Shown: positions 2,287 to 53,962 of the stretch, in pieces
Numbering within the stretch: the stretch's first letter is position 1
How the letters are laid out: each line of letters begins with the position of its first letter
Assembly: GCA_023853785.1 (NCBI GenBank)
Contig: JAJIRX010000704.1
Coordinates: 124,001-188,000 of the forward strand
Origin: Psilocybe azurescens
Lineage: Eukaryota; Basidiomycota; Agaricomycetes; Agaricales; Agrocybaceae
Length of the DNA stretch: 64,000 bases
Reading direction: 5' to 3'
Notes under the pieces: generated by a model
The model's input: the letters and a program-made list of their open reading frames with translations, nothing else
The model's database searches: none
Told to the model about the DNA's origin: nothing
Position numbers and translations under genes: made by a program

Positions 2287-2287
2287 T

Positions 2288-8596: not shown

Positions 8597-9001
8597 ACTT
8601 GGGCATACTGTACCTTGTGTTCACCATTTTACTGAATTTTTTCTTCTCTCCCAAACTTAGTATGTTTGTAACAATTTCTTTGGAGTATATATATTGTCAC
8701 TTTTGGTAATTCACGCATGCATGTACTTACAACGGACGGACGGCCCATGGCGGCAGCACGTGTGTGATCGCTGTGATGCAAGTGGGAATGCCGAGTCCCG
8801 ACAGATATTTCTGAATCCTTGGAAGTTGACCCTGGCAAAGGCAATGCCCATCTGTGGCAGTGGATCTCCCAGGATGTTGAAACTTGACAACCGGTAATCT
8901 GTTCAGGTTCAATACCAATCCTTTGCTTGGAGCGGCGAACTTCACCAACTTGTTGGCTAATCCAGGCCGTTGAAACCAGCGTCTCTTTTCACATCGGCGT
9001 C

Positions 9002-15367: not shown

Positions 15368-15377
15368 ATTGAACATT

Positions 15378-16857
15378 GTGGATTCAGAAAACCAACGTAT
15401 AAGTACCCTTAGGGCAGTGATATTGGTGGTGGTGAGAAGGATAGACGTGGAACCAAATAGCGAAGGTACTGAACGCTCATTCCTCGTACTATTAAGAGGC
15501 AGTCCAGCAAGGAAAGACAGTCACACGTATGTGATGAGGGTCGCTGCTCGGTATACCGGGATACGATGTCGGGTCTCCATAATTGGGACGGCAAAAGATG
15601 TCAAAACGAGTACCGGAGGAATGAGCCAAATTTAATTAACGATTACAACCAAAGAAATGGACACGATGGGGCCTTTTTCGCAGAGATGTGTACCACATTA
15701 ATTAGTATGGGAATTTTATTCCAGGACACAAATCGGCAGCATAAGTTGAGCCATAGGTCGTGAACTTGGATGTCATTTCTGATTCCACAAGGTGATAAGT
15801 TATCGAGTGAGTGAATTTTAATAAGTTGGCCACTGAGTTTGCCATGACCTGGGTGAAGCATTGAGATGGGTGCCCGGGCTCGCGCTCAATATGGAAATAA
15901 TGATAGGCATATTCGAAACTCGAGAGTGCTTGAAACCAAGAGACTTATGAAACTGAATAGTGGAATCCCCGAGATAGATAGTCGAATATACGTGGATAGG
16001 CAGTGAATGTACTTGAACGCTCGGGAAAGAAAATTGTCCGCACCTATTGCACGATTTGCAATGTCCGACTGAAAAGTGAAGGATCTATCATGTGATCTGT
16101 TTTGTGTCCGGCATTCGCCGTTACAGTTTAACCGTGAGCCTTGACGGGCTCAGATGTTCACTGTATAAGAAACTCTGAATATCGAGTTTTCATATCCAGG
16201 GTGGTCACGAGCCTACTTCACTCGCTGAGAATGTGTATGGGCTATCCTGAAACGCCCGACTCTCCTTGAAGTTCGTGTTTTACATAACATTAGGCATATG
16301 TAAGGCTCAATCCCGTTACCAATTAAACACTCTTATCTGATTACAAAGTGATCATTATCAGATAAAAGCCGAGATACTTAGCTACTGTTGACACTCTGAA
16401 GAGCTGTGCAATTCCGTTCGGTGTTGCGCTGCGTGTCTGCTTTAACGCTGATGACAGCAACAAGAGACGCAGTCCGCCAGATCGCATTGCATAGCCGTGG
16501 ATTTCATTCCAATTCATTCTCTGCCGAGCCCGGACGCAAGCGTTTTGCCAGTGTTCACTAGATCAAATGGTGGCAACGAAGGGTCGCACAGCTGCTATCC
16601 CTTTCGTAATGAACCAGACCTAATGCGTGCCGTCCGGTAAACCTTCGGTTATCGACTCAGTCATTGGATGTCAATAGTTGGACTGCGCGCTTGTCTGCAA
16701 CGCAGACGATTTCCAAGCGAGACATAGAAGACGACAGCGAACCTACAATAGCTCTGAAAGCATGGGAGCGATGTTAAAACACTTGATCGCCAGCAAACTA
16801 AGGATGCCGGACATTCTACGTATGTACATATTGCGACTTCGGTGACGATGATTTTTG
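15378..16857. other. Intergenic region between divergent AIF2-like and UGT genes
   Basis: About 1.5 kb shared upstream region of the AIF2-like gene (minus) and UGT copy 1 (plus). Only short, unsupported open frames are present. I recognise no repeat or RNA gene. Confidence 0.5.
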
Positions 16858-16863
16858 TATAAG
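16858..16863 (+). promoter_or_regulatory. TATA-like element of UGT copy 1
   Basis: TATAAG lies 54 bp upstream of the proposed start ATG at 16912. An out-of-frame ATG at 16871 sits between them and could act as a short upstream frame. Confidence 0.4.
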
Positions 16864-16911
16864 AGCTCCCATGGTTTCTTCAGGGACTTTATCCCATCGT
16901 TTACCACCTCA

Positions 16912-19028: not shown

Positions 19029-19507
19029 TATATCCTAGGTTCATAAATGCGTGCCTTTCATAATGATGATGAACTCAAAGTTAATAGAATCCTGTACATT
19101 ACGACTATACGAACTCCGGTTCGTAAGAATTTGCTGTAATGATCGAGGAGCGGGTGATAATCACCATTACCGTGATCGATTGGATGAATTTTGTTCGATG
19201 TTCGAGAATAAAAGATTGATATCTGAAATGAAGTTCATATGACTCATAACGCTCCCCCCTATCTTTTTAATTGGGCTGTATATCAGAGTTTCAAGTACAT
19301 ACGGCTAAATTCTCAGTAAGGCGCTCAAAATCTATTTTGGTACTGAGCGATTAGCTTGCGGTTTATTTTTAGGTCCCTGTAACTCGCCTTGTATCAAGGA
19401 AAAAGATTCTGATTATAACCAAACCTCTAATTTAATGCCGACAGGTATCTAATAATTATCACTCCACATTGTCCGTTGTCGTGGCCTCACATGAACCCTA
19501 ATTTGGT
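19029..19507. other. 3' region between convergent UGT and AIF2-like genes
   Basis: About 480 bp between two convergent gene ends. A/T-rich 3' sequence; I see no gene in it. Confidence 0.5.
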
Positions 19508-20848
19508 TTACTCAAGGTCTAAGCTCTTCTTTGTCATTCCTATTATAACGTCTTTCGATTTGAGCATAGCTGTGAACCAGTTGCCAAATATAAGCCCCCA
19601 TAAGACAGCAAAATAAGACGAGCCGCCACTCTGTTAGAAAAAATTGAGGGTTGACGAATAATAAGTGGGATCATTGACGAACCTTCCCGTTAGTCAAAAC
19701 TATGAGCTCAAAGCTACCCTTGTACTCGACAAGACTTTTCTTCTGTCCTAGAACGAATAGGACGTTGTTTGTAACAACTGGAGCATGTTTCTGTATTTTG
19801 GCTGCCTGCTTTTGCTCGTTCCAGTCGATGGCGTCTCCAAGCGCAAAGATACGCTCATGTCGAGGAAGTTGAAGCGTTGGCGAGACTTTGATGTACCCTT
19901 TGGCAGTCAGAACCTCTGATCCGAGAGACTCGACAAATTTAGTGTTGGGTCCACTCGGACCCCGTGTCATGACCTTTGCGCACAGATATCGTGAGTGACA
20001 GATAAACTACTTGAATGAGTGGTAAGGGCGTACGACGAGGTCGGCTTTGATGGATTTCTTTGTTCTAGTCGAGATTTGGCCATCCTTGACTTCCGGTTCA
20101 TCCACATATTCACCGAGGACAAGCTTGACACCCCGTGCCTCTAGGTCTCTGGCCACTCTTTTTCTCCAACGATCGGGATAGGCATTGTTCAATAGAAGTG
20201 ATTGTGCATGTACGATGGTTACATTTTGGTCCTGTTGAGGATGAGTTAGTAAATTGAAGCTCCGTGCTATCAAAAAGGGAATACCTTTCCCAAGTCTTTG
20301 ATTTCTCCAGCGAGTTCTAATAATAAATCAGTTAATATGAATGATTAGCCGCCAATACGCAGAGAACTCACCAGTTCCTATAGAACCTCCACCAACGATC
20401 ACAATATCGCGTGCTTTCTGGAAAGAATTTCGCCAGGTTGTAGCCAATTCCACAATCTCGTATTTCGTGTTCCCAAAGGCAAGAGGGCCTTCCCAAACGC
20501 TTCCAGGTGAGAGGATAAGAATCGAGAACTGAACCTGCTCCCCAGTGTTGAGAACGACATAGTGACCCTTTGTGTTGTCATCAACAATCGAGGTAACTTC
20601 GCCCACAATGAGCTTCTTGTTTCCAGTGTTAAATTTAGAATCTTTAAGAGGTACGAGGACAGTATCTTCGATATTTCCTTCAGCGGTCGTAATCAATCGA
20701 ACGCCGGCAGGGCGATGGTTAAAAAAGAGCGATTGTTGATGAGGATGATATTGTATCTGGTAGGGTCGAGCTGAGAGGATAGCCCGTTGAACACGCTGAG
20801 TCCTCCATTTCCTCCGCCAACAATAACGATATTTTGAATTTTGGCCAT
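19508..20848 (-). CDS. AIF2/FSP1-like FAD-dependent NAD(P)H oxidoreductase, copy 2
   Basis: Paralogue of the gene at 14022-15367. It starts MAKIQNIVIVGGGNGGLSVF (FAD motif), has a second dinucleotide motif IVIVGGGSIGTE across an intron, then TIVHAQSLLLNNAYPDRW, ALGDAIDWNEQKQAAK and a last exon ending GMTKKSLDLE. Introns are short and in positions comparable with copy 1. The frame loses one base in an A6 run (plus-strand 20721-20726), just after the first FAD motif, in an otherwise conserved stretch. A TATA box lies 59 bp upstream. It is divergent from the NUBPL gene. Confidence 0.87.
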
Positions 20849-20906
20849 GTGGATAGGGGTCGGGTAAGAGAAATATTGTGAGGGATCCAGAAATGGTTGC
20901 GAACCC

Positions 20907-20914
20907 TTTATATA
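20907..20914 (-). promoter_or_regulatory. TATA box of AIF2-like copy 2
   Basis: On the minus strand the sequence reads TATATAAA, 59 bp before the ATG at 20848. It is the clearest core promoter signal in the window. Confidence 0.6.
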
Positions 20915-21294
20915 TTCGATCACCCCTTATTCGATGGTTGTTATTGCGGAAGTGTTTACAAAGTAAACCGAGTGTTCCCTGTAACTCAGTTGTTACCAAT
21001 GCATCGCTAAATTGAAGTCGTTCATTGGTAAAATCAAGCAAGGTAGTCAGCTAGCGTGTGTATTTCGTCAAGTGTATTGTGTCATCACGATCGGAGTCCT
21101 TCCAAATTAGGTACGTATTTTGAAGTGCTAACCATTTGAGCACCCTGAGGCAATGTCCATCGAGCACTGAGTATAAGCTTTGGATAACCTAAGCTAAGAA
21201 CTTCAGTGTTTAGTAACTAGTAAGCAGGCTGACGGTAAAGCCATTTTAGTGAACCGTGACGCAATTTGAATTTCAAAACTCACACGGTTGTATC
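20915..21294. promoter_or_regulatory. Divergent promoter region, AIF2-like copy 2 and NUBPL
   Basis: About 380 bp lies between the AIF2-like TATA box and the NUBPL start, so the two genes share a bidirectional upstream region. I recognise no further motif. Confidence 0.45.
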
Positions 21295-22650
21295 ATGTTC
21301 ACCAGCCACCACCTTCGCCCTATTTCTAAAAATCTCCGTTTCTTATCCACTTCGAGACGGGTACAACATGAAAATCCTCTAGTAAGTTAATTATATCCCA
21401 ATGATTTGTCAATAATGGTCGATATTAGGGTTTGCCTAGGCGGCCACCACCGCCCCAGATGCCTAGGAAGGGAGGTCCTATCCAACGTCGGTCAATTGCG
21501 AATGTGGACAAGGTGCTGGTAGTCGCAAGTGGGAAGGGAGGTGTCGGGAAAAGTACAATAGCGCGTGAGTTTTAGCTTAAAGCCATGTCCTTTGTTTCCA
21601 ATCCGTCCAACTAAACCGTGGATTCAAAATGCTCCAGTCAACCTCGCCTTTGCTCTCGCATTGCGCAAGAATGAACAGACCAACGCGCCATTACGCGTCG
21701 GAATTCTAGACCTCGACATATTTGGACCTTCAATACCTACACTTATGGCATTAAAGAATGCTGGGGAGCCAGCCTTGACAAGCGGTCAGTATTACCTTGT
21801 TTCCCAAAGGCGTGATGCTAAAGAAGGACGAATGCGTAGCTAGTGGGGTCTATTCTCCCAATGATAAACCATGGTCTTCCATGCATGTCCATGGGGTTCC
21901 TCATTCCATCCACTATCCCCGGATCAGATGACAACACAGATACGCCCATTGTGTGGCGCGGATTAATGGTTCAAAAGGCTGTCCAACAATTACTTTTCGA
22001 CGTTGACTGGTCGAGAGACGGACAAGGGTTAGATATTCTTGTCGTCGACATGCCGCCCGGAACGGGCGATGTTCCTCTACGCTAGGACAGCTTGTCAACG
22101 TAGATGGTAGTGAAACATTTCCTTTAACGATCCATAGTCTAATCAAATTTTTCTCCAGGTTGTGTCATCGTCTCTACTCCACAGGATGTCGCTCTGTCAG
22201 ATGTCAGAAAAGGGATAGCAATGCTGAGAAAAGTCTCCGTACCGGTCAGCATAGACTGACTATCTACGTTTCGTTGCACTCACATCCAAAAAGATCACCG
22301 GCCTCATTCTAAACCAATCATTCTATTTATGTCCGGGATGCAACTCGCACACACCAAGATATCTATTCGGTAAGATAATGGTGTTTGCGTGATCTGCGCT
22401 ATCCATTGATCATTGTCCTACTCCAGGTAAACCAGACAACTTTCATGATGTCGCCCGCAAACTTGATACCCCTGTGTTAGGGGAGTTGCCTCTGGTAGAG
22501 GGCGTCAGCACGAGTGCTGACGGTGGATATCCTTACGTTTTGACTAACATCAAAATGGTTGAAAGCACGGACGGTGATGGTGGTCTCACTTGGAGGTCTA
22601 ATATGGCACAAGTCGCTGAACGCGTTACCTCCGCTCTATGGAAGAATTGA
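21295..22650 (+). CDS. Mitochondrial Mrp/NBP35-type P-loop NTPase (NUBPL/Ind1-like)
   Basis: Fe-S cluster carrier NTPase of the NUBPL/Ind1 type, which in other eukaryotes matures Fe-S subunits of respiratory complex I. The first exon ([20 protein letters not shown], rich in Arg/Ser) looks like a mitochondrial presequence. Then come the deviant Walker A motif [10 protein letters not shown] (about 21535-21555), [36 protein letters not shown] and the metal-binding CPGC motif (about 22333). Exons include 21295-21381, 21429-21564, 21638-21784 and from 21844. One base appears missing at about 22079-22081 within the GTGDVPL-TLGQL block, giving a false stop at 22083. The rest fits the family to its end. 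Confidence 0.9.
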
Positions 22651-22710
22651 TCTACGCGTCCAGTCGGAAACCTGATTCTTCGTGAATCGTACTTTCAAGG
22701 AATCTATTAC

Positions 22711-23128
22711 TTGATGTGCTTTCCATGCGGTCTCTCCCAGCTTCACAGAGGCGTTTACTCGAATTCGCTTGCAGGGAGGATAACTTCCGACACCATTATG
22801 TGTGTTGGTGAACAATGTTATTACATGCATAGCCGATCAGCGCTTGGATATCAAGGTGAAAGACTCAATTCTCAAGGCATCTACAACCCTGGCCTGCTGG
22901 ATGAAATTCGTCTTGTAAGAAGCTTGTATTGCTCTTGCCGCAGAGCGTGCTGGTCTTTAGAGCCCGATAAGGGTCTATTGATGCATCTACCACCAATTAA
23001 TTGCCACCTATTGAAGAGTATGCGTGAAGTTCATCGGCTACGACTCGGATGTCATGCGATGCTTTAAAGCAGTCGATGAACTCTCCCGAACGTTGTTCGA
23101 GCAACTCGACCTCTTTGAAGTGATGTAA
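22711..23128 (+). pseudogene. Possible decayed coding sequence, family unknown
   Basis: A 118-codon open frame (22711-23067) is followed in another frame by a clean, hydrophilic reading beginning KFIGYDSDVMRC (about 23027) and ending LDLFEVM with a stop at about 23128. The two pieces look like one tail joined by a shift. I do not recognise the family. It could be a gene remnant, a gene broken by missing bases, or chance. Confidence is low. Confidence 0.25.
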
Positions 23129-23129
23129 T

Positions 23130-24051
23130 CACTCATTTGAGTCTCGGCTACTGACGTAAAATGCACTTAAAGTAAAGTGGACAGTCAGAAGCTACTTATG
23201 GGGTGAGATAGTTTTGATGGATAACTACCTATTAGTTACTTCAACTATAACTATCCCTGTAACTTGTAACTTTAGTCGATAACAACTCATGACACTGCGT
23301 AAGCCTGCTCGTGTGCGCGTTATTGCATCATAGAGGGTTACAGTATTTTAGCCAGTCATCAGCGCTTCAGTGCTCAGCGACTGACGAGTATTTATCACAT
23401 ATATGTAGAGAGTCTCAAGTGTATTCTTCAACCTGACAATGTCATAGGAGATGATGTAAGCTAGCCATGCCAGTCCGACAAACCGTAACCGTTACACCAA
23501 AATGGCGCTATTAATACACTCTGGCATCTGTTGCTCGGACTGTACATGAAGCGGTGAGCCATTAGGCTTACAGATGGTAAATGTATTTCCTGGTAAGCAT
23601 TCATTATTTGCTCTTGCTCCACTCTGAAACTTGATAAATAAGCCTCGATTCAGGATGTGAGAAGGATTTTTCTTTTTTTAGTCCTCGAGGTCCCAGCAGG
23701 ACACACCCGGCGCACCAAGGCCCACATCTCATGATCCGACCAACGTCGCATACTCAGATGCAATGTTGAACTGGATACAACGCGTCGTGAACAGAATTCT
23801 CGACCACACTTATGCCAGTGTGGGTGGCCATCTTGGGCAACAGTGCGTTGATTCCAATACCACAAGTCTACTCGGTCTTACACTGCGAATAAAGCCGTAC
23901 GGTACAGATATAAGGCCAACGCAGGTTCTGCCTGCCGGATGGTGACGTACCTTCGACTATCCCGAGTCTGACTATGTCGCCCGAGCCTCTTCATTGCTGT
24001 ATCTGCTATATCAAGGATCCAGCTTCACACACTCCCCGTATAAGATACCAT
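23130..24051. other. Intergenic region upstream of UGT copy 2
   Basis: About 0.9 kb with no supported gene, RNA gene or repeat. Short open frames here lack splice support. Confidence 0.5.
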
Positions 24052-24091
24052 TATATAAATGCTATCCGCTCTATGGGTCATAGTACAACCC

Positions 24092-24098
24092 TATAAAG
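24092..24098 (+). promoter_or_regulatory. TATA-like element of UGT copy 2
   Basis: TATAAAG lies 49 bp before the ATG at 24141. A second TATATAAA-like word occurs at 24052-24060. Confidence 0.45.
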
Positions 24099-24140
24099 CG
24101 CGATAGTCCAATCTCGTTTGCCTCGCAAAACACTACCTCG

Positions 24141-26453
24141 ATGGCAATCGCCAGCCCAGAGAACAAAAAGCCCACTCATATCCTCTTCTCGGCCTTTCCA
24201 GCATGGGGTATGATCTATACCCGCTGAAATTCCGAGAAACTATATTATTAACACTCCACTGGCTCGGCACTTTCTAGGACATGTCAGACCGTTTTGCGTT
24301 CTAGCCGCACGGCTGGTGAAGGACGACGAGAAAATAATTCTGACCCTCATACTAGCCCCAACCCTGCTGAGCAAGGCTCAAGCCGAGATATGGGCAGAGT
24401 TTCGCGGTGCTGTGTCTGATGATATTCGTCGACGAATCAGGTATGCAAATTTAAAACGCGCACATGTTCTAGATACCACTACTACTATGCTATACTCGGG
24501 CCTTACGCGTTATCATAGGGTGCTCTCTTCGTTCAAGTCGGGTTCCAACGACTTGTTCACGCTCTTCGCACCATTGGCCAAATCATACGCGACATCCTAT
24601 CAAGCCCTCTCGCAATCCAGAGCTGTTTCATGTGCTGTGACGGGCACCGTTTTCGACGCTGTTTCCCCTCCTAGTATAGTCATCCTCGATGTGCGTAAAT
24701 ATCCTCAATATCTCTCAGAATCACTTTATATTTTAACTGATATTCTTTTGCAGTTCTTTGCGTATGCCCAACTACAAGCAACGCGCACCATCACCGGTTG
24801 CTCCGTGCCAATTGTGTCATGGGTGACAGGCCATGCAGCCTCGACGATCCGCCTATTTGGCCCCACAGACAGAGGCGGCCACGGCGACCTCGATGCGAGG
24901 AACGCAGAAGAGGCGCTCCGAATAGGCGTTACGCCTCGGGAAATCGGCGATTCGGTAAATATTCCTTCCATGCATATGGAGACCTAATTGAAGCGGGTGT
25001 GATATTATTGCTTGTATCAAGCTCTATAGGCATACGGATGGGACGGTGGTTAGGATACCAGGAATTCCGCCCATGTACGACTGGGAATTCTTCCCGCAAG
25101 AGGTATTTGTTTATGTCCAATTATACTTGTAGTAAGGCTCATAGCAAGCATGTTCGTGATCACTTTAAATTCTAGCTCCCTTACCAAGTACCCGTCTCTC
25201 AAATATTAACCATGGCCCATCGGTGTGCATCATCACTTTTCTTATACTGTATGCATAATGGCTATCACTTACATCCAGCTCTACCAAAGGTCACTAAAAG
25301 AATGCGACGCAGTGCTCACCACGTCTGCATACGCTCTCGAGGCGGAATCCTTAGAGGGATTGAGGTCATGGTTCTCCGAATGGAAGAAAGACCTCTATGT
25401 CATCGGCCCTCTGCTTCCCTCAGAATATGGCAGGGTAGCAGCAGATAGCGCTCCAGGGTTTCCGGAGACTCGCGAGTTCCTTGATAAAGCCCTCGCAGAG
25501 CACGGAGAAAGATCCGTCATGCTGGTGAGTTCTGGTTTCTATCAATAGAATTTTATGCGCTATCTACTTTCCTCTGAAACGCATACGGCGCTTCTTGATA
25601 TTAGATATCCTTTGGGACGATATTTTGGCCGACGAGGCAGGACTACATAGAGGAGGTTGTGGAAGCTTTGATCGAGAATGACTTCCCATTTGTACGCTTG
25701 TTCTTTTTCATGCTCTTGAACCCGCACCCTCCCTCTTTCCCTCCTCCTCCCCGAGCTCACGTGTTATTTTGACGCCTGTCTTCTAGATTATCAGCTATGC
25801 GTCGCCATTTGCCACATTATCGGACGGATTAATCCAGAAAATGAAATCATCAGGGCTGGGTCATATCTCGAAGTGGTTCCCTCAGCAGTTCATCTTAAAC
25901 CACCCCGTACGTCCACCCATTATTTAAAGGGCGAGGGAATTACCTGACTAATGAACTCGAATAAAAGGCTGCAGGGTGGTTCATCACTCACGGAGGACAC
26001 AACAGTGTCATGGAGGCACTAGGGAGCGGCATACCTATGTACTGTGTCCCAAGCCCAGTATATACACATCTACCTACTCAATCGCATCCTAAATATTTTC
26101 AGGATCTGCTGGCCCATAGAAGCCGACCAGGCAGCAGCAGCCGCCCATCTCACCGCGAACCTCAGAGTCGCGTTCGAGCTGGTCGAAGTGCGGACCGGCC
26201 TCAGCGGCATGAAGCCGCTGCTCAGGCTGGAGTCGCGGGACGGCACTGGCAAACGCCAGGCGAAAGGCACGCGCGAGGCGGTGGGCGTTGAGATTCGGAG
26301 TGTTATTCAGGCGTGTCGGGGTGAGAAGGGAGACGAGCTCCGTGCGAATGCGCGGGAGATGAAAGGGAGGTTGGAGGAGGCGGTGGAGGTGGGGGCGTTA
26401 GTAGGGTTGAGCTTGGTAGGTTTTTTGAGAAGTATGATAGGCCGGTGTCGTAG
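24141..26453 (+). CDS. UDP-glycosyltransferase, copy 2 (GT1 family)
   Basis: Second GT1 UDP-sugar transferase, similar in layout to copy 1. It starts MAIASPENKKPTHILFSAFP with a WGHVRPF block over the first intron. The acceptor domain continues through VLSSFKSGSNDLFTLF and FFAYAQLQATRTITGCSVP. The donor domain has ISFGTIFWPT, LGHISKWFPQQFILNHP, the WFITHGGHNSVMEALGSGIP signature (25978-26040) and CWPIEADQAAAAAHL. The last exon ends FFEKYDRPVS at 26453 if one base missing near 26404-26406 (a G run) is allowed; as written the frame runs on to a longer, unlikely tail. One exon join near 25215-25275 is uncertain. G/C content of the last exon is higher than in copy 1. Confidence 0.85.
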
Positions 26454-26622
26454 TGCTCTGCAGGGTTTGCCGCTGGATTTCGGCACTTGGGTACCTGTGT
26501 GTTTGGATTTAGTATTTATATGTAGCATAGACGGGCTTTTACTGGTTCGAATTAAATTATATTGATAGATCACAGAGTATTGACACCACATTTCGAAAGG
26601 TCGGAATTATGAACATCTTCAA

Positions 26623-27144
26623 CTACATGCGAGGCATTCCTTTGCGGGCGCCACATCTCTCAGCCCTCGCTAAGTCGAGATACTGCCATAGGGCAACCTC
26701 CTCCGATCCATCCGTGTCTTCTCCCCATATATAGTATATTGCGCGGCGCCGCATGACTATAAACTGGTGGGGAAGGTATTTAACCACAACGATGAGCATC
26801 GCCGTGCAGAAAATGGCGAATATCGTGACTAATAAGTATCCGTTTCCGAGGAATTTCGAGGTTTGAAGTGGAATTGGATAAAGGCGGGACAGTTGAATAT
26901 TCAGAGTGTGATGGTATTATGGAGGAGGAGGGTAGAATTACTCACGAACGAGGACTTTCTCCCATGGCTCGTATACTGTTAGAGCGAAGGTCGACTCGAT
27001 CCAGATCCTTCTTCTCCACCAAAACGAGCCGAGCTTTTCCTGCGATCTTGATGTTGGCCTGCGAATGGTTTTAGCTGGCTCGTAGCGGATTCGGGAGAGA
27101 GGATGGTGTTGGATGGTGTTTGGGTAATGAAAGGCCCTTGTCAT
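26623..27144 (-). CDS. Small subunit of serine palmitoyltransferase (ssSPT/Tsc3-like)
   Basis: Small ER membrane activator of serine palmitoyltransferase, the first enzyme of sphingolipid synthesis. Two exons fit: 27144-26946 and 26828-26623, with donor GTGAGT and acceptor TTATTAG. The joined product has the ssSPT core: FWWRRRIWIE, then ALTVYEPWEKVLV, a hydrophobic segment LTIFAIFCTAMLIVVVKYLP, then QFIVMRRRAIYYIWG. The EPWE motif before the membrane helix is characteristic. Product is about 134 residues; the start MTRAFHYPN at 27144 gives a longer N-terminus than in animals, and an internal start is possible. It is easily missed because of its size. Confidence 0.8.
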
Positions 27145-27941
27145 AACGGATGTACACCGTAAAAACAATGCTTGAAACTTAAAGACTGAAATGCAGATTT
27201 TTAAAAGTTGAGGATAAGCGCCGTGTCTCTGATGAAGGGAGAGGAGAGGGAGGTTGTCTGAGACTTCAACGTTTCAACGTTCAACCCTCCTGTCACGAAC
27301 CCGGCGGGCAAGACAACTGTCGGTGAACAGTACAGAAAAGGGAAATTCAGTTGCCATATATGGGTTTGATTACCTGGATGCTGAAAATTAATATGAGTTA
27401 TCACGATTTCAGATTATGCAACGCTGGTTGCAGAGTAACATTTTCCACTGGAGATAGGGTCGCATATGTGCTTCAGGATGCGCGTTAATGGACTTGACCA
27501 CCAATAACAACAATATCCATTCACTCCACTCTTTAGAAATGATGAGGTGTTCATGGTAACACTCCTTAATCTGAATACATCGTAAGCAGCAGGCGAATAG
27601 CTTTGCACCGAGTTTGTATCTTCTATGCATCCTAACAGTGCACTGATTCGATTCTAGAAAATCGCAACGAAATCAAATCAGGCTGATTGGAGGAGAGCGA
27701 GAGACCGAAAAACGGACGACGGACGTTCGAGGACCGAAGGATTTGGATTTACTTCCAAAAATAGAAAGACAAATCACGTGAATATAAGTTTTCTCATGAC
27801 GATAACACAGTTGGGAATTGCAAAAAGGTTGGAGAGGATTATTTGTCCAACCAAGTCCGAGAGTTGGAATACGCTCCTTCTCGCTCTGTTCTTTCCTCCT
27901 AAACTTGCTGGATAGTTCTCTTTCACTTCTTCTGAGATACC
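27145..27941. other. Divergent intergenic region, ssSPT and NDH-2 genes
   Basis: About 800 bp that must contain both promoters. Overlapping short open frames on the minus strand are not supported. No RNA gene or repeat seen. Confidence 0.5.
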
Positions 27942-30524
27942 ATGCAATCAATACGAAGCCGAGGTCAGTCGCGTCTCGTCTAGATTCGCTTGTTCTCATC
28001 AACTGACAACTCCGTACTTCTTTAGCCCTCGCGAGGTCTATCACTCAGTCTAGATCTCTCACTCGTTCCCAACTCTCAAGGCAAATCGCGCGTCGTACGC
28101 TCGCTACGGAGTCTGCGAAGTCAGAATCTTCCGCCACCGTATGTAACCTTTGAATCTCATTTCTGGCAAGCACCATTGAGCATTTCTTCTTGCACTAGGC
28201 CTCTTCTGCCTCCACAATCCCACCACCACCACCACCCCGTCAATCAAGATGGCGCGGATTCCTCCAAATCCTCGGCCGCACAACTCTTATCACTATGTTC
28301 GCCGGCGCAGGGGCATTCTACTATGTTACACAACTCGACCGAAATCCGGGAACACAACTGCCATTTGACCCCGAGAAAAAGACTCTGGTCGTCCTCGGCA
28401 GCGGCTGGGGAACGACCAGCTTGCTCAAGACGCTAGACACCACGGACTACAACGTCGTGCGTAGAATTGCTCCTACACCCGCACTGGACGGAACTCCCCC
28501 TTGCTTATCCTTATCTCGCTTCCCGCTCTGTTTAGGTGGTCATCAGCCCGAAGAACTTTTTCCTTTTCACCCCGCTGTTGCCCAGTGTTGCTGTCGGCAC
28601 ATTGAATCCCCGTTCAATCATCCAGCCAACGCGCTATATCACAAGACACAAGACTCGACAGGTTTCCGTCATTGAGGCTGAAGCTACCGATGTTGATGTA
28701 TGTATCGGCTGCTGTCTTCCTTGACACCGACTCTCATCATCATCTTACTTGATTTCAGCCTATAAATAAAACGGTCACTTTCGTAGGTGCGTCATATTGA
28801 CGCATATACACGTGATGGCGCAGCAAGAATCACGGCAAAGATGCTGATTCCTATGTGAACAGATAACTCGGATATCAAGGGCAGCGTGTCGTCGACAACC
28901 ATCTCATATGATTATCTGGTGTACGGTGTTGGAGCCGAGGTCCAAACCTTCAACATCCCCGGTGTTCAAAAGCATGCTTGTTTCATGAAGGAATTGGGCG
29001 ATGCGGAACGGGTGAGCGCATTTGTCGAGATACCAACCATCCTTTGTGTACTAAAAACGGCACACTTTAGATGCAACGTGAATTCATGGATTGTGAGTTG
29101 CGGAAGGGCACGCCGTCGGAAGTTCATACCTGATACAGCCTCTAGGTGTCGAGACTGCAGCCTTCCCTGGTCAAGATTCCAAGGAAATCGACCGATTGCT
29201 GCACATGGTTAGATCACTGCCATTCAATTGATTCCATTTTCTGACGAATCTGTTCTACAGGTTGTCGTCGGCGGTGGACCTACAGGTGTTGAGTTGAGGT
29301 ATGTACCCGCCGCCTCCATCTATCCAGGCTTCTCAATACAGGACACAGCGGTGAACTACACGATTTCCTCGAAGTAAACACGACTCGTTCCTTTTTTTTC
29401 TTCAGCTTTCTGATCATTACCAACAGGACGATCTTAAATCCTGGTACCCCGAACTCGCTGGCAAAATCCGCATCACGCTCGTCGAAGCGCTGCCCTCCGT
29501 GCTGCCCATGTTCAGCAAGCAGCTGATCAGCTACACCGAGTCGCAGTTCAAGGAGAGCAAGATCGAGATCATGACCAAGACGATGGTCAAGGAGGTCAAG
29601 GAGCGCAGCGTCGTGCTGCAGATGCCCGACAAGAGCATCGTCGAGGTCCCGTGCGGCATGGTCGTCTGGGCCGCGGGCAACAAGGGCAGGAAGATCACGC
29701 AGGACCTGATGGCCAAGCTGCCCCAGGACCAGACGAACAGGAGGGGCATCGCCGTCGATGGTGCGCCCACATCTTCTTTATCTGGTTTTTCAGTTTCGTT
29801 TTCTGATGCTTGGTACGAAACGTGGTTGCGTTTAGATTTCATGCAGATGAAGGGCGCGAACGGCATCTTCGCCATCGGCGACTGCACCGCAACGTCATAC
29901 GCGCCCACCGCCCAGGTCGCCTCGCAGCAGGGCGCCTACCTCGCGCGGGTGCTGCACCAGATCGCCAGGCGCGATGCGCTGCAGGACCGCCTGAGCACGC
30001 TCGAGCAGGTGCACGCCGCGCTGCCGCCCGCTGTGGCTGGAGACGTCGTGGACGCCGCGGCGACCGCCGCCGCCGAGGCCAAGAAGGTGGAGGAGGAGAA
30101 GGAGGAGCTGAGGCGCCAGCTGGCCAAGTTCAAGCCGCGGCCGTTCCATTATTCGCACCAGGGCACGTTGGCGTATATCGGCTCGGACAAGGCGATCGCG
30201 GATCTGCCGTTCATGAATGGCAATGTGAGTTTATGTTTTTTTTTTCTTTGTGTTCGTTGTTGGTTTTTGGTGTATGCTGATTGTGTTTCTTTTTTTTGTT
30301 ACTTTTTGTGATAGTTTGCTAGCGGAGGTGTGGCGACGTATCTTTTCTGGAGGAGCGCGTATTTGAGCACCCTGTTCTCCCTGCGCAACCGCACGCTGGT
30401 GGCTACCGACTGGCTCAAGGTCAAGCTCTTCGGACGGTGCGTGCTGTGCCCTCTATTCATTTCTGTTCTGAGTACTGATGGTTTATTTGTTGTTTCGTTC
30501 ACTAGTGATGTCAGCAGAGAGTAA
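27942..30524 (+). CDS. Alternative NADH dehydrogenase, type II (NDE/NDI-like)
   Basis: Single-polypeptide, non-proton-pumping NADH:ubiquinone oxidoreductase of the mitochondrial inner membrane. The first exons (27942-27963, 28026-28138) encode an Arg/Ser-rich presequence (MQSIRSR, then ARSITQSRSLTRSQLSRQIA). Exon 28199-28456 carries a Pro run, a membrane-type segment and the FAD motif LVVLGSGWGTTSLLK. VISPKNFFLFTPLLPSVAVG and the NADH motif VVVGGGPTGVELS (about 29260-29300) follow. AIGDCTATSYAPTAQVASQQG is at about 29872-29940, and the last exon ends KLFGRDVSRE. There is an acidic coiled stretch near 30080-30120 but no EF-hand. About twelve exons, no frame breaks, and a G/C-rich 3' half. Confidence 0.93.
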
Positions 30525-44675: not shown

Positions 44676-45444
44676 ATGCGTGTATCAGTAATCACTCTCC
44701 TATCTGCATTCACCCTTGTGCTTGCAGCGCCTATCGTAAGTACTCGCATTTTGTCCTCAAATACAGATTGAAAACTAACGTACGTACGCTTCTCAGAATG
44801 ATGGTGTGATGGCTCTCCGAAGTGGAGATCTTGTTGCAGCAGTGCGTTATATTCATATCACTCTCCCATTCACGCCAGACTTACTGTGAATCTTTCCGTG
44901 TTCTCAGAGAGATGCTGCCCCCGTAAACCCTGACTGGAAGCGCGAGGCAGAGGCCGGAAATCCTGACTGGAAGCGCGAGGCTGAAGCCCAGAGAAACCCA
45001 ACATGGAAGCGCGAGGCTGAAGCCCAGAGAAACCTAACATGGAAGCGGGAGGCTGAGGCTCAGAGGAATCCCACCTGGAGGCGAGAGGCTGAGGCTCAGA
45101 GGAATCCCACCTGGAGGCGAGAGGCTGAGGCTGGTGGTAGGAATCCCACCTGGAAGCGAGAGGCTGAGGCCGAGGCTCAGAGGAATCCGACCTGGAAGCG
45201 CGAGGCTGAGGCTGAGGCTGAGGCTCAGAGGAACCCCACCTGGAGGCGCGAGGCTGAGGCTGAGGCTCAGAGGAACCCCACTTGGAAGCGAGAGGCAGAG
45301 GCTGGTGGTAGGAACCCTACCTGGAAGCGGGAGGCAGAGGCTGAGGCTCAGAGGAACCCCACCTGGAAACGAGAGGCTGAGGCTGGTGGTAGGGACCCTA
45401 CCTGGAAGCGCGAGGCAGAAGCCGGCCGCAATCCGACTTGGTGA
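44676..45444 (+). CDS. Secreted Kex2-processed repeat peptide precursor (alpha-factor-like)
   Basis: Predicted secreted precursor of 213 residues from exons 44676-44735, 44797-44841 and 44908-45444. A signal peptide (MRVSVITLLSAFTLVLAAP) and short spacer (NDGVMALRSGDLVAA) precede 14 short units, each ending in Trp. Units are separated by 13 dibasic Kex2 sites (WKR or WRR), each followed by two to four Glu-Ala pairs, the substrate of Ste13-type dipeptidyl aminopeptidase. The cores are VNPDW, GNPDW, seven QRNPTW, one QRNLTW, two GGRNPTW, one GGRDPTW and one GRNPTW. This is the layout of ascomycete alpha-factor precursors. The mature peptide would be a hexapeptide, perhaps with N-terminal pyroglutamate. 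Family membership (KEP class) is inferred, and the target is unknown. Confidence 0.93.
44938..45441. repeat. Minisatellite encoding the peptide units
   Basis: In-frame tandem repeats of 30-42 bp (AAGCGCGAGGCTGAGGCT...AATCCCACCTGG type) build the precursor's C-terminal part. Unit length changes by 6-bp GAGGCT steps, so copy number and Glu-Ala count probably vary between strains. Confidence 0.85.
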
Positions 45445-46585
45445 AAAGCTACCAACTCGACCTATCTTCAGTCATTAGTCGCTAGTCGACAAATACCACC
45501 CGGTTCTTGGAATGATGGTCGAAACGGTTCCACAACTTCAGCGAGGTTTAACAATCTTTTTGAATAACCGTCTGCCTTTTTGCATTTCCCTTATCCCTCG
45601 CGACGCCTTTTTTTCTCTGCATAGTGTTAGCATGACTCATACCCACCCTCATTTGTTCCAACTTCTGATATAACGCATTCACTTTCTCCCTTTCGCTCTA
45701 TATATCAAAGTATTAGTGCTTCTGCATTGTAAAAAAAAATTAGGATTAATCTCGCCTTTCGTAGGACTTAATAAGCAATAAATAGTAATTTGATGATAAA
45801 ATTTGCAGTGTACCAAGGGGTAGATATGAAATAACCGAAGCTAGGTTGCAAGTTGGGGGTAGTCAAGACTCTCGGGTCTTTTGGGCTGCTTGGCCCATTG
45901 CCTTCGGTGTAGGAGCGCTGTATAAGGTACGACATGCTACTTATCCTCTTAGAAATAAAGTGCACTCCCACAATTAGAGCGGAAAATTAGAGCATAAGCA
46001 CTGCGCAGTATTAGGACAAGGCGACGACAAGAGCGCACAAGCATGTCAAGATTGATCCAAGACAAATTGTTAGACCAAGCCCGCACATATTACGCGCTGC
46101 TTAATCAGCAATTATGTAATATTCGATTATGTCTGCGCTCGTCGCCAACCTTCGCCAACTCGAAGCCGCTGTCAAGGCGCTGTTTCTGTTTGCCTTAAGA
46201 GTCGTTGAGTGCAGAACACGTTGACTCGGTGAGGATGTACTATGGTCTGCTATGTGGCCGATAGCAATTTACAAAGGTGCCTAGTAAGAAGTGCTCGAGT
46301 ACTTACATTTGAAAAAGAAAAATTTGTATGGAAGATGCAATATGATGATGGGCGACACGGAGATAGGACTCCTCTGACGGTGCGGCCATATAAGCGACAG
46401 GCCCATGTGTACGTCGCATCAGCTCTCATCAGCCTCGTTATTTTAACAAGGAGGATAGCAAGACTTCCTTTTCTCTTGTCCTCTCTCTTTCTACCTCTTA
46501 TATCATTTTAATAGCTTTCTTTTTACGACTTTCTTAGCTTCGGGGCAGCTTCTGGGATCATTTGAACGTTGAACCTATAGATCAG
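45445..46585. other. Intergenic region between precursor and bestrophin-like gene
   Basis: About 1.1 kb. It carries the precursor 3' region and bestrophin promoter. Short frames such as 46242-46511 have no recognised motif. Confidence 0.45.
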
Positions 46586-48916
46586 ATGTCTGTCAATCAG
46601 CCAGTGGTTGAGCCTGCAACCCCAATTTCGGTGAGTATATGCGCGCTTTCTGCTATTCCTGTAGTAGCCTTCACGTTCATGCTTGTATTTTCAGAGAGTG
46701 GAGACCTTTGCCCATACCGGTTTTCGCGTCCCTGACCCGTGAGTGTCGTGCGACATCATGGAGCTCAACTATTGATTACTCCGTGTTCTAGCTTTGCACC
46801 ACGACAACGACCTGGATCTTCATTTGTTAATGCTCTTCTTGCCACCGCTCTCTTTAGATGCTGGCATATACTCCTCTTCTTTGCTGGCTGGTCGACCCTT
46901 ATCACCGTCCTGAATCACCATGGTCATAAACTGTTCATCCAACCGACTCTACTTACCGTGTATGGCACATTAAAACTATTGAGGCCGCCTCATTAATCAT
47001 ATCATTTGACTTTAGCGTCGGCACGGTTCTAGGTTTCATTATCTCTTATCGCACGACGTCATCCTTCGAGCGGTACAATGAAGGAAGGAGGTTATGGTCC
47101 CAAGTTATTCTGGCTAGCCGAACAATGGCACGTACAATCTGGTTTCATGTACCGAGTGGGTAATGTCCGCACAAGCTGCACTTATTTCAAGCTAATTAAT
47201 TTGCAGATGCCCCACCTGCGGAGGGAATGAGTGAGCAGGAGGCTGCAGCCAGGTCCCTAATTGAGAAGAAGTCGGCGATCAACCTTCTCGAGGCTTTTGC
47301 GGTGGCTATCAAGCATTATCTAAGAGGAGAGGACAGCATTTACTACCAGTATGATCTTTGTCTTTTATTTATATGTTTTAACTTACATTTTTCCAGAGAC
47401 TTGTATCATCTCGTTAAATTCCTGCCCGCATATGCTTTGCCTGCTGGATTGCCTGCGTCTCCAACTGATAACTCTGTTTTCAATGACGATAGCCATAACC
47501 GATCTCCCGTATCCCCCAGACTCCAGTCACCAATTCGTTCAGCAGTCCGATCTCCGAGAATACATATCCAAATGGTCTGAGCAGTCCTGGCAGACAACCT
47601 ACCATTACCATTGCCCCTATATCATCGGTTTTACACCAACGTAATTCGAACTCTGCTACTTCCCCATCTTCTCTCCCAGCCCCTGTGTCAATCGGTGCTC
47701 CTGGAAAGAGGTCTTCGTATTACAACGGCGTGACCTCCCCGGTTTCGGCAAATCTTCAGAAGGAGAAGGAGCGTATGGTCCTGACGCGACAGGACGAAAA
47801 TTACTTGATGCCTGCACACATGCCTCCCAAATACAGTGTCTTCGATCTTTTTCCCTTCTCTCTTCTCGTGAAATGGCTCACAGAGAATGGCAAGGACGTC
47901 AAAGGGAAAAAAGGAGCCCGCATACGAGCAAAACTCCGTAATGAGGCCGTATCTCATAATCTTCCTTTAGAATTATCTTTATATCTGGTGTGTTTCAATC
48001 GCGACCGTCTCGAGCAATCAAATTAATCCCTTCCTCAGAGTTCTTACATTGCTTCCCTTCAAAACCGTAAAATATGTGACGTTCCAACTACTAGTGAGTT
48101 GATCTTTGCAACATACTAAATGTATCTAGTACAATTTGTCCCCCAGATACGCTTCTTCTTTCCTTAAATCAACTGGTGGACAGTCTCACGGGCCTGGAGC
48201 GTATCTTGACCACCCCGATTCCCTTCTCGTGCGTACTGAATGGATTTAAAAAGCCATCACATCATGCTCAGGCTAAATCTTTCTACAGTTACTCCATCCA
48301 TCTCTGGGTCGTTACCATAATATATTGCCTTGCATTGGTATGTCACCGCTGCGACGGGTGACTTCGTATTTGTCTGATGATCACTGCTGCAGCCTTTCCA
48401 GATCTGGTCTACACTGAAATGGATCACAATCCCTGGCACTACCGTCATTGTGAGTTGACATGCCGCTTATGTACAGACAAACGCAGTTGTTAACCGCTGT
48501 CAAAGAGCTTTATTTTCTTCGGTTTCCTCGTAGCTGGTGAAGAAATTGAGAGTAAGTCTTATTTATAGCCAATGTCCGCATAGCTATCTCAACAATAACT
48601 TTCTGGTCTATAGATCCCTTTGGATATGATAAGAATGACTTGAACCTCGATCATTTCACACATAGCATCATCCGTGAGTTCAATACTTGAACCTTTACTT
48701 GACCTTCTTTCCGTGCTGATCACCGCTCCACCAATCCGTGTTCCAGGAAACGAGCTGAGAGCGGTGACTTCGACTCCACCTCCCAATCCTACGCGATGGG
48801 CCTTCGTTCCCGAGAATAACCTTTTGTTCTCCAATCATACGGATGAACGTGTTACTCCAGAACAATGGATTGCCCGCGGTCCCAATGCGATGCAGAGGAA
48901 CCTCAGTCAATTTTAG
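46586..48916 (+). CDS. Bestrophin-like anion channel (UPF0187/RFP-TM)
   Basis: Membrane protein of the bestrophin family, which forms chloride or anion channels. It starts MSVNQPVVEPATPIS, with short exons. ALFRCWHILLFFAGWSTLIT and VGTVLGFIISYRTTSSFERYNEGRRLW form the early core. LINLLEAF-like SAINLLEAFAVAIKHYLRGE, a long Ser/Pro-rich insert (about 47440-47700), FDLFPFSLLVKWL, PIPFSYSIHLWVVTIIYCLALPF and the NPFGYDKNDLNLD signature (about 48610-48650) follow. It ends QRNLSQF. About ten exons are implied. A C5 run (47513-47517) sits where the frame of the insert slips by one base and would be corrected by one more C. Confidence 0.87.
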
Positions 48917-51342
48917 CAACGACGGACTTCAAGACATCATGCTTATATTCTGCCTACGCGATTTGAACGGCGTGAAGTCTTGGCCTACTAGCCTAGGTCG
49001 GACATAACCACCTTTAATATTCCAAGGCACTATACGCTCATATGATCATATCGCAAGGACATGCGCGCTCTTAAATTCATTGACAACACTCATTGATCAA
49101 TATTCCATCTTCTATTCACTCACTCACTCACTCATCCTTCTACATTAGATAGATTTGGACATACATAGTCATCTTCAAAAGCACCGGATTTTTATTTTTA
49201 TGATTGGTTTTCTTCGGGGGTTTCCATCGGGGGTTTCTCTGGGGTTCTCATCTACATCTTCTACTGGTTTGCAGTCTTGCTCTCGAGCATTATGCATAGT
49301 TCTTTTTTGACCACATTATTCAATTTATTTGGCTGTCTTTCATTGGCCTTTCATGGGTCTTTCAACGCCTTTCGTTGACGGATGCAAATACGTGGCGTAC
49401 CTGAAATTTATTCACAATACCACGTATTACGTAATATATAGGTATCTGGCGAACTTGAAACATGTGAGTTGTTATGCTGCCTCTCTGCATCTCCCGCCAC
49501 TCGCCGCCACTCGCCGCCACCTTTCTTCTTTTCTCTTCCATCTTTCCAACCTCAACGTCTGGTGATGATTTGCCACCCGCGGTTTATTAAGCCTCGAATT
49601 CTCTGTCTGAAACAAGATAGACGGTGGCGCGATTCGCAATTTAATTATTCATGGTGTTCTATGGTCACCGCGGGGAAACAGAACGATCCCATTATTCTAA
49701 TCTTTTTGACGGACTAGGGCCTAAAGATACCATGGTCACCGCGATCAAACACAACGATAACACTATTCTAGTCTTTTTCGCTGACTAGACTTGAAAGATA
49801 CCATGGAAAAAGTCTAAATATGTGCTTATGAAAACTTCGAGGCTTACACCGTGTGCAGAGCGTGGGGAATGCACACTTCTCGCCTCGTTTGATATTGTTG
49901 CCTGTCAAGTGCAGGGCCCAAGCACCCCCACGGATGTTCAACGTTCAACGTTCATCAGTCAAGCAGAACACATAATGAAAATGAAGAAGCAAACTCTATC
50001 GTACTATGGCATTTGCCTCGCGGCGGTGGGATTACGGAACGCCTCACCTCCAGTATGTCATTTTAATTTTTGCATTGCATTGCATGATGTATATCGCGTC
50101 TCAATTACCAACTATTCTCAATCTTGACAGAAGTTTAGAAGTATTCTCATTCATCTTCAAGGAAATCGAGATTCGATCCGCATCTTGGTCGAAAAAGAAA
50201 AATTGCCACTCCCCTCTCCTTCGGCTTTCTCGATGTAAATACATATACGACTCTTTCTCAGTCTTTGCGTGAAACACGGTCACTTTCTCATCTGGGCTTA
50301 ACTGCAATTCGTGGACACTGTTGATATTTCACGAACTTGGTCTGCGAACCATTGATATCAAATGTATCGTGGCTCTAGTCATCGTCACTACCTTGGCCAC
50401 TTCTCTGACACACACTGTCCTATCTGACCTTGTCTTTTTTTGCTGCAATATCAAACCTAGGATAAAAGCTGACATACGCTCCACCAATTAATCTGTATGG
50501 ACATGCAAGCGTTTAACGGCAATGGTTCCTCCCCGATTTCCTGATTTTGGTCGTTATACTTTGATAATAGTCTGCTGAGCGACACCGGAAATGACATGCT
50601 GCAAGGTAAAACAAGAAGTCCGACGTTGCGCCCAAGCTATGGTACCAACAAACGAGGCCTTATAACTTTCTCTTTTCATATTCCTGACCCTGCTTGGTCG
50701 AGACGGCGACGGCTGCTTCACTACCATTTCGGTGTTCTCCAACCCAACCCTGCACAATGGCCGTTTCGTTTCGTAATCGGTCAAAACGCTTTACTGGTCG
50801 ACTGGAAGTTTACCGGGAGGAACATACAGAATCCTTGTAAATTCCAGGTACATGATATGTATCTAGGGAATAGAGTTGGTGGACTGTTATGCGGTACGCG
50901 TGCCCGATGTACCTGTCATCCGAGTACCCCGGATGCCGACATATAGACGAATACCTATACTCATTGATTCTAGGGTAGTCTGACCACCGTCACTTTCTCT
51001 TCAGATCTTCACTATACGCCGTTGGCCGGTTTCATTATAGTTGTACTATTGAATTATAATGATACTTAGCAAACATCTAGGGAGATATCGATGTAGTCGG
51101 AAATTAATATACTCTATACCTGCCTGAGATCTTCCGTGTTGCTCGATTGCACCTCCTTGTCCCTGTCTACATTTCCATATGCATGTTGATTTCCATAGTC
51201 CAGAGAAATAGCGAAAATGCAACGAAAATGAAACTAAAGTGGTCTGGAGGACAACTTATCATTTGGTCGGGGTCTGAAAATGACAATTAATTTAGCCGAT
51301 GACTCAATAAACTTGTCCAGGTGCTTATACAAAAAACTTTCT
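48917..51342. other. Intergenic region between bestrophin-like and glycyl-tRNA synthetase genes
   Basis: About 2.4 kb. It contains a CACT microsatellite (about 49115-49135), a GCCACTCGCC triplicate (about 49495-49520) and the 71-bp duplication. A 116-codon frame at 50596-50946 is unsupported. Confidence 0.45.
49661..49802. repeat. 71-bp tandem duplication
   Basis: Two adjacent imperfect copies of equal length (49661-49731 and 49732-49802) each begin ATGGTCACCGCG and end AAAGATACC; the next four bases (ATGG) restart the unit. It is non-coding as far as can be seen. Confidence 0.8.
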
Positions 51343-51414: not shown

Positions 51415-53962
51415 ATGACTACCTCTGTCAACAAAACAGAGCATGCTTTCGATAAGGGCCGTCTCGAAGCTCTCCTAAATCGCAGGTTTTTCTATGCTCC
51501 TGCTTTTGAGATTTACGGAGGTACGTGTAGTTTATTGTAGGGGATCATATTCAACCATACGATTACAGGCGTGGCTGGTCTGTACGACTATGGCCCCCTG
51601 GCTCTTCTCTTCAAGCCAATATCATTGCCGAATGGCGGAAACACTTCATCATCGAAGAACATATGTTGGAATTGGACACCACGATTATGACACCTGCTTC
51701 TGTTTTCGAGACATCCGGCCACGTAGCTAGATTTGCGGACTGGATGGTCAAGGATACAAAAACTGGCGATGTTCTCCGCGCCGATCATCTTGTCAAAAAT
51801 GTGCTGGAAGCTCGTTTAGCTGGGGACAAGGAAGCGCGCGGCCTTGCTGCTACTCCTGCTACAGACGACAAGAAAAAGAAAAAGAAGGCAGTCAAAACTA
51901 CTGCTTTTAAGCTTTCTGATGAAATTGTAGAGGAATACGAAACCATCCTTGCTCGGGTGAGTTGTTATTGGTTTCGCGTCGCGATCACCCCACCGATCCT
52001 TCACAGCTCGATAACTATTCCGGTGCAGACATCGGCGAGCTCTGCAGAAAGCACAACCTACGAAACCCCGACACGGACAATGAAGTCGGAGAACCACAAC
52101 TATTCAACCTTATGTTTGCCAGCAGCATTGGACCCACTGGCCAACATCCCGGGTGAGTCCACAAGATCTTCATACAACTCCATACAACTTAAACTGCGGC
52201 TATAGTTTCCTTCGCCCTGAGACCGCTCAGGGGCATTTCCTCAACTTCTCGCGGTTGCTCGAATTCAACAACGGACGTGTACCCTTTGCTTCTGCCCAGA
52301 TTGGTCGGTCGTTCCGAAATGAAATCTCTCCACGCGCTGGTCTGCTCCGCGTTCGCGAGTTTACCATGGCCGAGATCGAGCATTACGTGGACCCTGAAGA
52401 TAAGAAGCACGAACGCTTTGCAGACGTGCGCGATGTCAAGCTCGTCCTCCTGGATCGACACGTCCAGGAAGCGGGTAAGAACTCGACCACTGTAATGAGC
52501 GTCGGCGAGGCCGTCGATAAGGGTATTATCGCAAATGAAACCCTCGGCTACTTCGTTGCTAGAATCTACCAGTTCCTCATCAAGATCGGCATCAACCCAG
52601 AGAGGCTTCGTTTCAGGCAACACATGGCGAACGAGATGGCTCATTACGCGACTGATTGCTGGGACGCAGAAATCCATAATTCCACTGGCTGGACCGAATG
52701 TGTAGGTTGTGCCGATCGGGCAGCGTACGATCTCACTGTGCATAGCAATAGAACTGGTCACCCTTTGGTTGTCCGCCAAGCTTTGAAGGAGCCCATCGTC
52801 ACTGAAAAGGAAATACCTGAATGGAACAAAAAGGCTCTTGGAAAGACATACAAGCAGGATGCTGGCGTCATCCAGAAGATCGTTGAGTCAATGGATCAGG
52901 CAGAGTTGGCCAAACTGAAGGGACAGCTTGCTCAAGGGTAAGAGGGGTTTAATCAATGGGGATTGGTTGATCTAGCTTACCAATTGCTCGCAGGAAAGCC
53001 GTTATCACATCCTCGGAAGGAAATGAGTTCGAGGTTACTCCTGAGGTACTCACTATCGAACTGAAGACACTAAAGCAGTCAAGTGAGTCATACATACAAG
53101 AATAACGGCGATCAATTTTCTCAATCTCCATACACCATTTTTTTCTCCAGTACGCGAATATACCCCTAATGTTATTGAACCTTCCTTTGGCCTGGGTCGT
53201 ATTTTGTATACTTTGCTTGAGCATAGTTTCTGGAGCAGAGAAAAAGACGTCGAGCGTGGTGTGAGTACTACGAATATTTGATTGCCAACTAAAGTGATTG
53301 ACTCCAGATCATCTCAGGTGCTGTCACTCCCGCCCTTGGTTGCCCCCACTAAGGTTCTCATTGTGCCCTTGAGTGCCCGAGAGGAGTTTGACCCGTTGGT
53401 CAAGGAAGTTTGTGCGTCTCCATCGCAGCCACAGATTTTGACTCTATTACTGACGGCATCTTTTATCTTCGTCTCCTTGGTGCCTCTTGGCTGGTCCCAA
53501 CTTTTAGCTTCCAAACTGCGTAAAGCTGGTATATTTTCGCGAGTTGATGACTCGAACACTTCGATTGGGAAGCGATATGCCCGCAATGATGAGCTGGGTA
53601 CGCCGTTTGGGGTCACACTCGACTTTGCTTGTACGTCAACTCCGTTCCTTCCGTTAGAGTCTAAGTTCCTGAACCCCAATCTGCCCTAACAGCCGTTCAA
53701 AACAAGACGATGACACTTCGGTAGGCTTTCTCCCTATTGGTCTCCAACAAGGCCGTTCCCCCGTGTTTTATGTTTTGACTGTGATGCTGACGGGGTTCCG
53801 ATTGCTTTTTATTTTTGCAGTGAGCGAGATACCATGGATCAGAGAATAGGTCCCATCGACGAGGTTATTGCGGTTGTCACGGAGCTCGTCTTTGGCAATA
53901 TTACTTGGGAGGAGGCCTGCGCACGTCTGCCGGCCTATGATGGCGTCCAAGCCATCGAGTAG
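51415..53962 (+). CDS. GRS1: Glycyl-tRNA synthetase
   Basis: Class II aminoacyl-tRNA synthetase that charges tRNA-Gly. It starts [31 protein letters not shown], then [57 protein letters not shown] and [12 protein letters not shown] are class II core blocks. [32 protein letters not shown] (motif 3) and the anticodon-binding domain ([39 protein letters not shown]) follow, and it ends YDGVQAIE. Introns of about 50 nt include 51521-51568 and 52153-52205. A C5 run at 51594-51598 breaks the frame after DYGP; one more C restores it. As the gene is essential, a consensus error is likely. Confidence 0.95.

Follow-up and report, generated by a model that had tools for sequence, protein, structure and literature searches.

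The QRNPTW gene, a three-exon gene in the window (i.e., the whole stretch of 64,000 nucleotides that was analysed), very probably encodes a Kex2-processed repeat protein (KEP) with STE13-type spacers, from which a linear peptide would be secreted, most likely as a signal perceived by the producing fungus or by neighbouring organisms and not as a mating pheromone. Trp-ending KEPs with an STE13 signature are a class already described in 2019 and 2022 and not a new kind; what appears to be new is threefold: the core QRNPTW, a leader for which no relatives were detected, and the presence of two more Trp-ending KEP-like loci in this genome. We infer the expression, cleavage, product and function of the precursor. 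This locus is a clean, testable case: a single precursor carries as many as seven copies of the same hexapeptide, the masses have been predicted, the repeats differ mostly silently, and the genome offers two sister loci for comparison.

Gene Structure and Leader Peptide

The features of the gene, its neighbours and its two sister loci are collected in Table 1. The spliced model translates into a protein of 213 aa, and both introns are of the GT-AG type. In the enumeration of gene models, an ATG with 0–2 introns (45–130 b, GTNNG donor, YAG acceptor) was joined to the repeat frame; two distinct N-termini were obtained, and a strongly hydrophobic start was found in the three-exon model only. Since the repeat frame by itself offers no ATG, GTG or TTG start yielding 50 aa or more, it must be joined by splicing to a start codon farther upstream. 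An N-terminal signal peptide, MRVSVITLLSAFTLVLA-AP, is predicted from hydropathy and the −3/−1 rule, judged by eye. Residues 1–50 of the leader had zero relatives at E up to 10 among the 34 candidates of the protein search, and the scan of the repeat exon returned 0 Pfam families at E up to 1, MF_alpha included. The precursor ends in GRNPTW, that is to say, without the CaaX box of basidiomycete pheromones. The boundaries proposed by the sequence-only reading proved right to the base, and a recount returned the same signal peptide, 14 units, 13 KR/RR sites, two to four Glu-Ala pairs and seven QRNPTW cores.

Table 1. Features of the QRNPTW gene, of the surrounding window and of two further loci in the genome (positions are those of the window unless a contig is given).
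Feature	Position	Strand	Description
QRNPTW gene	44676–45444	+	three exons
Exon 1	44676..44735	+	start codon and signal peptide MRVSVITLLSAFTLVLA-API; translation, hydropathy
Intron 1	44736..44796	+	61 b, GTAAGT...CAG
Exon 2	44797..44841	+	pro-region NDGVMALRSGDLVAA; translation
Intron 2	44842..44907	+	66 b, GTGCGT...CAG
Exon 3	44908..45444	+	RDAAPVNPDW, then 13 x ([KR]R-(EA)2-4-core), stop; 14 Trp-ending units
Kex2-type sites and spacers	44938..45423	+	13 KR/RR sites with (EA)2-4 DPP/STE13-type spacers, cores between
AATAAA hexamer	45777..45782	+	possible polyadenylation signal 3′ of the gene; consensus match only
RasGEF_N and RasGEF matches	103–10512	+	three successive places
Pyridine-nucleotide oxidoreductase matches	14873–30308	two −, one +	three places, the last with an NDH2 C-terminal domain
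tRNA-synthetase pieces	52084–53686		Pfam; glycyl-tRNA synthetase according to relatives (among the best 120 of 2068 matches)
L002	C609, L002:1489–1938	−	second Trp-ending KEP-like gene, hydrophobic start, one intron; model read by eye
L003	C852, L003:1501–1992	+	third Trp-ending KEP-like array; PPNSDW, PPNQDW and PPNQSW units

Repeat Array and Its Constraint

The dibasic sites that separate the 14 units are KR in ten cases and RR in three, and all 13 are followed by a Glu-Ala spacer, which carries the STE13 signature and consists of two pairs at nine sites, three pairs at three sites and four pairs at one. In-silico trimming gave 14 fragments: QRNPTW seven times, GGRNPTW twice, and QRNLTW, GGRDPTW, GRNPTW, GNPDW and the leader-attached VNPDW once each. 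The computed [M+H]+ of QRNPTW is m/z 801.400, and that of its pyroglutamyl form 784.374; for GGRNPTW it is 787.3846, and for EAEAQRNPTW, which still has its Glu-Ala pairs, 1201.5596.

The DNA pattern TGGARRMGNGARGCNGARGC, which stands for W-[KR]R-EAEA but leaves out CGN codons for Arg at the first of the two basic residues, matched the 70.4 Mb genome 13 times, each time inside the QRNPTW gene, and the same pattern read backwards as a control matched 0 times on both strands; the W-[KR]R-EAEA array is not a chance occurrence. Its tandem-repeat score of 522 is the highest in the window, where the best score elsewhere is 185. A two-unit pattern (W-[KR]R...W-[KR]R) was rejected as too loose, with 434 matches against 358 in its control.

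Divergence between the repeats was counted pairwise over a 10-codon block (NPTW-KR-EAEA) in the 13 units with a dibasic site, the last unit, which has none, being excluded. The counts, which are not independent of each other because they are pairwise, gave pS 0.58 and pN 0.055, and in the EAEA block there were 106 synonymous and 0 non-synonymous differences. When the same repeat DNA was read in the shifted frames, pN/pS was about 2.5 and 0.95. That the differences between units are mostly silent, and are not so in the shifted frames, suggests that the repeats are under selection at the peptide level. Conservation of the spacer equals or exceeds that of the core, an argument for the importance of DPP-type trimming in basidiomycetes.

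As a separate observation, the QRNLTW unit (45031–45042) carries a lone Leu variant by which NLT arises, an N-glycosylation sequon that is absent from the NPT units.

Processing Machinery in the Genome

Three kexin-type genes were found by profile search of the genome, with P-domain matches at two places on contig C738 and at one on C155; S8 subtilase domains accompany them, and the motifs DDGL, HGTRC and GTSAA are present in each of the three. These motifs lie on pieces in different frames, as one would expect if the genes contain introns; one of the P-domain matches holds two stops.

The genome also holds a single gene of the DPP IV (STE13-like) type, with DPPIV_N exons and S9 matches downstream, whose activity is putative. 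It spans L071 and L077 (C550:249150–254702), and no other gene with a DPPIV_N domain was found. By eye, SYGGFMSS and GSGDDNVH are recognisable in its translated frames, and the pattern of the complete DPP serine motif had no match in L071 or L077. Gaps of about 1–2 kb, with one T-rich stretch, separate the exons of the catalytic domain, and each of the two S9 matches contains one in-frame stop; gaps and stops could represent long introns, insertions or damage. Introns would explain the missed motif, the gaps and the stops, although activity is not thereby assured. NCBIfam gave 0 families for one DPP IV frame and two kexin frames.

DPP IV-type enzymes require Ala or Pro in the second position of their substrate. 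Every predicted core, once its Glu-Ala pairs are trimmed, starts with QR, GG, GR or GN, and such starts should therefore resist removal by an enzyme of this type. Bare NPTW would be a substrate of it, so the QR or GGR extension may shield NPTW from DPP IV-type trimming.

Proposed Maturation and Product

The maturation of the precursor can be envisaged as follows. The precursor would enter the secretory pathway by means of its signal peptide; kexin-type proteases would cleave after each KR or RR, and a Kex1-type carboxypeptidase would take off the basic residues; the DPP IV/STE13-type peptidase would then strip the Glu-Ala pairs, stopping at QR, GG, GR or GN. Each precursor may thus yield up to seven QRNPTW peptides together with close variants, all of them having Trp as their free C-terminus, and the N-terminal Gln would probably be converted into pyroglutamate. 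The sequence-only reading had likewise supposed an alpha-factor-like layout, processing of the Kex2/Ste13 type and QRNPTW or its pyroglutamyl form as the likely product, and the presence of kexin and DPP IV genes and the in-silico trimming are consistent with this.

Comparison with Described KEPs

Le Marquer 2019 (PMC6339444) described KEPs of Basidiomycota in which the STE13 signature is clear and a repeat motif, XSDW, is conserved. According to Vogt 2022 (PMC9769878), the Coprinopsis cinerea KEP 490115 expressed in Pichia gave QMRPPSW, QYKAPSW and pyro-QYKAPSW with the STE13 spacers removed, GPPAPSW was detected in Coprinopsis culture supernatant, and peptides ending in AADW were present in fruiting bodies of Lentinula and Pleurotus, among them SGVAADW from the STE13-type Pleurotus ostreatus KEP 1091723. 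The same source notes that many other basidiomycete KEPs carry STE13 motifs and a C-terminal Trp, and it gives three as the number of kex2 genes in Coprinopsis and other agaricomycetes. The basidiomycete KEPs with an STE13 signature have in common a secreted precursor, repeated short cores, dibasic sites, XA/XP spacers and a C-terminal Trp; an N-terminal Gln, as in QRNPTW, occurs in some of their cores.

The QRNPTW gene differs from the Coprinopsis and Pleurotus KEPs in a core that was not found in the literature and in a Glu-Ala spacer at all 13 sites, in a comparison that covers the text of the papers. The XSDW KEPs have a short repeated core ending in Asp-Trp (the published text gives the motif alone), to which the PPNSDW units of L003 are alike, whereas the units of the QRNPTW gene end in PTW, LTW or PDW. 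Ascomycete alpha-factor precursors are similar in having Kex2 sites followed by repeated XA/XP dipeptides; they differ in the core, and the repeat exon studied here has no Pfam match and the genome no STE2 match, the latter in an uncontrolled search. Neither QRNPTW nor RNPTWK occurred in the literature text searched, which excludes figures and supplementary tables, where this gene or an orthologue may be listed, and NPTW together with basidiomycete had no match in the same text. The sequence-only reading knew of no described peptide with this core, and none was found in the text searched, but the kind is not new, since KEPs with STE13 spacers have been on record from Basidiomycota since 2019.

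Relatives in Public Proteins and in the Genome

The search of 5.8 billion proteins, in which scoring was confined to the 8000 candidates with the most words in common, returned four matches: one from Termitomyces, two from Zasmidium and an unnamed one that resembles those of Zasmidium. A proteome search had been named as a check in the sequence-only reading; it did bring out these four Trp-ending relatives, but their cores differ (PGW, KYELW/KFELW). The Termitomyces hypothetical protein C0995_002980 (P0002) is alike in its Trp-ending units, KR/RR sites and E[PA] spacers and differs in that its cores mostly end in PGW and that EP and EA spacers are mixed; searched back into the genome, it led to the QRNPTW gene only. 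The two proteins of Zasmidium cellare (P0001 and P0004) share Trp-ending units with DA/EA dipeptides, but they come from an ascomycete and have KYELW/KFELW-type cores and many KK or RK sites.

As for the two sister loci, L002 has 11 Trp-ending units before KR or RR, mostly RGNVDW, e.g., SENDARGNVDW. In L003 the reading frame changes inside the array, which is put down to decay, splicing or misassembly. There are no (Glu-Ala)n spacers in either, and DAAPA follows one RR in L003. The NSDW units of L003 were also seen to resemble the published XSDW motif. The QRNPTW gene, L002 and L003 match each other weakly, and what they share is chiefly the recurring DW-KR pattern; common descent of the three is therefore not proven.

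A wider reading would hold that mushroom-forming fungi share secreted linear peptides with a free C-terminal [Ser/Thr/Asp]-Trp tag, read by a conserved receptor or importer, and with an N-terminal part that diversifies by species; such peptides would form a non-sexual language alongside the CaaX pheromones. Endings of this kind in the genome are QRNPTW, GNPDW, RGNVDW and PPNSDW, and PSW or ADW peptides are reported from Coprinopsis, Lentinula and Pleurotus in Vogt 2022 (PMC9769878). What speaks against this reading is that most Termitomyces cores end in GW and the Zasmidium ones in LW or AW; because of these endings, and since few sequences bear on it, the shared tag is regarded as improbable.

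Alternative Explanations

It is a tentative but serious alternative that the peptides address not the producer but other organisms, be they bacteria, animals, plants or competing fungi, and this overlaps with the preferred explanation, where the addressee is left open. In its favour, Vogt et al. describe knockouts of six Coprinopsis KEPs that were without visible phenotype in pure culture and favour a role in biotic interaction, so that a self-signal role is no more than conjectural for that set of analogues; KEP repeat sequences are also described, in Umemura 2020, as highly diverse between taxa. On the other hand, synthetic peptides of Coprinopsis KEPs showed no activity against the bacteria on which they were tried, and a single short core under such strong constraint is equally what one would expect of a ligand for a receptor of the producer itself.

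That the precursor is a dikaritin-type RiPP substrate, the cores of which are cyclised by UstYa oxidases, is unlikely. Dikaritin precursors do have repeated cores between Kex2 sites, there are at least 28 UstYa matches in the genome, and of 76 KEPs resembling the STE13-type set of basidiomycetes, 17 lie near DUF3328 genes (Umemura 2020). None of the at least 28 matches lies on C600, the contig with the QRNPTW gene, however, and the cores of the array are without Tyr; in Umemura 2020, moreover, only 103 of the 1680 KEPs of Basidiomycota are near DUF3328 genes. The cyclic product was therefore set aside, and the RiPP-type substrate that the sequence-only reading had listed as an option is weakened for the same reason. 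Since no UstYa match is found on C600, a linear, perhaps pyroglutamyl, peptide would be the likeliest product.

Slightly less probable still is an uncleaved or wall-attached structural protein comparable to Rep1 of Ustilago maydis. Rep1, too, is a precursor cut by Kex2, and its peptides become attached to hyphae, but it lacks an STE13 signature; the units here have 5–7 residues and unchanged EAEA spacers, and the repeat exon, as given above, has no Pfam match.

The layout of the precursor is the same as that of the ascomycete alpha-factors, and yet a true mating pheromone of that type, acting through an STE2-like receptor, is highly improbable here. STE2 gave 0 matches in the genome (2 candidates scored, in a search without a working control), and STE3 gave 43, of which 40 were over the cut-off, as expected for mating by CaaX pheromones, with none on C600; it is because of the many STE3 matches and the lack of a detected STE2 match that this explanation is not the leading one. 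A functionless array, degenerate or never translated, is scarcely credible: the leader without detected relatives might speak for it, but the frame is open across 14 units, the splice sites are canonical and the divergence between repeats is biased towards synonymous changes. The preferred explanation is a secreted linear signal or interaction peptide.

Genomic Context

The neighbours were surveyed with Pfam in 30 of the 85 stop-to-stop frames in the window that reach 110 aa. At E up to 0.01, nine of these frames gave a match, and none of the matches hints at a peptide pathway. The three successive RasGEF matches are perhaps tandem duplicates. Among the best 120 of 2068 matches to the glycyl-tRNA synthetase exon, in a search whose length filter left out full-length proteins, the few that carry an organism name include three from Mycena, at 73–74%, and one labelled as Sesamum contamination, at 56%. 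The kind of KEP, the three kexins, the many STE3 matches and these Mycena relatives are the grounds for placing the genome in the agaricomycetes.

For a comparison of repeat number, a second allele was sought with the flank 46500–49500, which had one match in the genome, namely itself. Several STE3 and UstYa matches have identical scores on the contig pairs C777/C800 and C40/C538, which suggests that the assembly partly contains both haplotypes or else recent duplicates, although the flank of the KEP gene turned up once. Downstream of the QRNPTW gene, a 71-base tandem repeat of 2.1 copies was also observed at 49661–49806.
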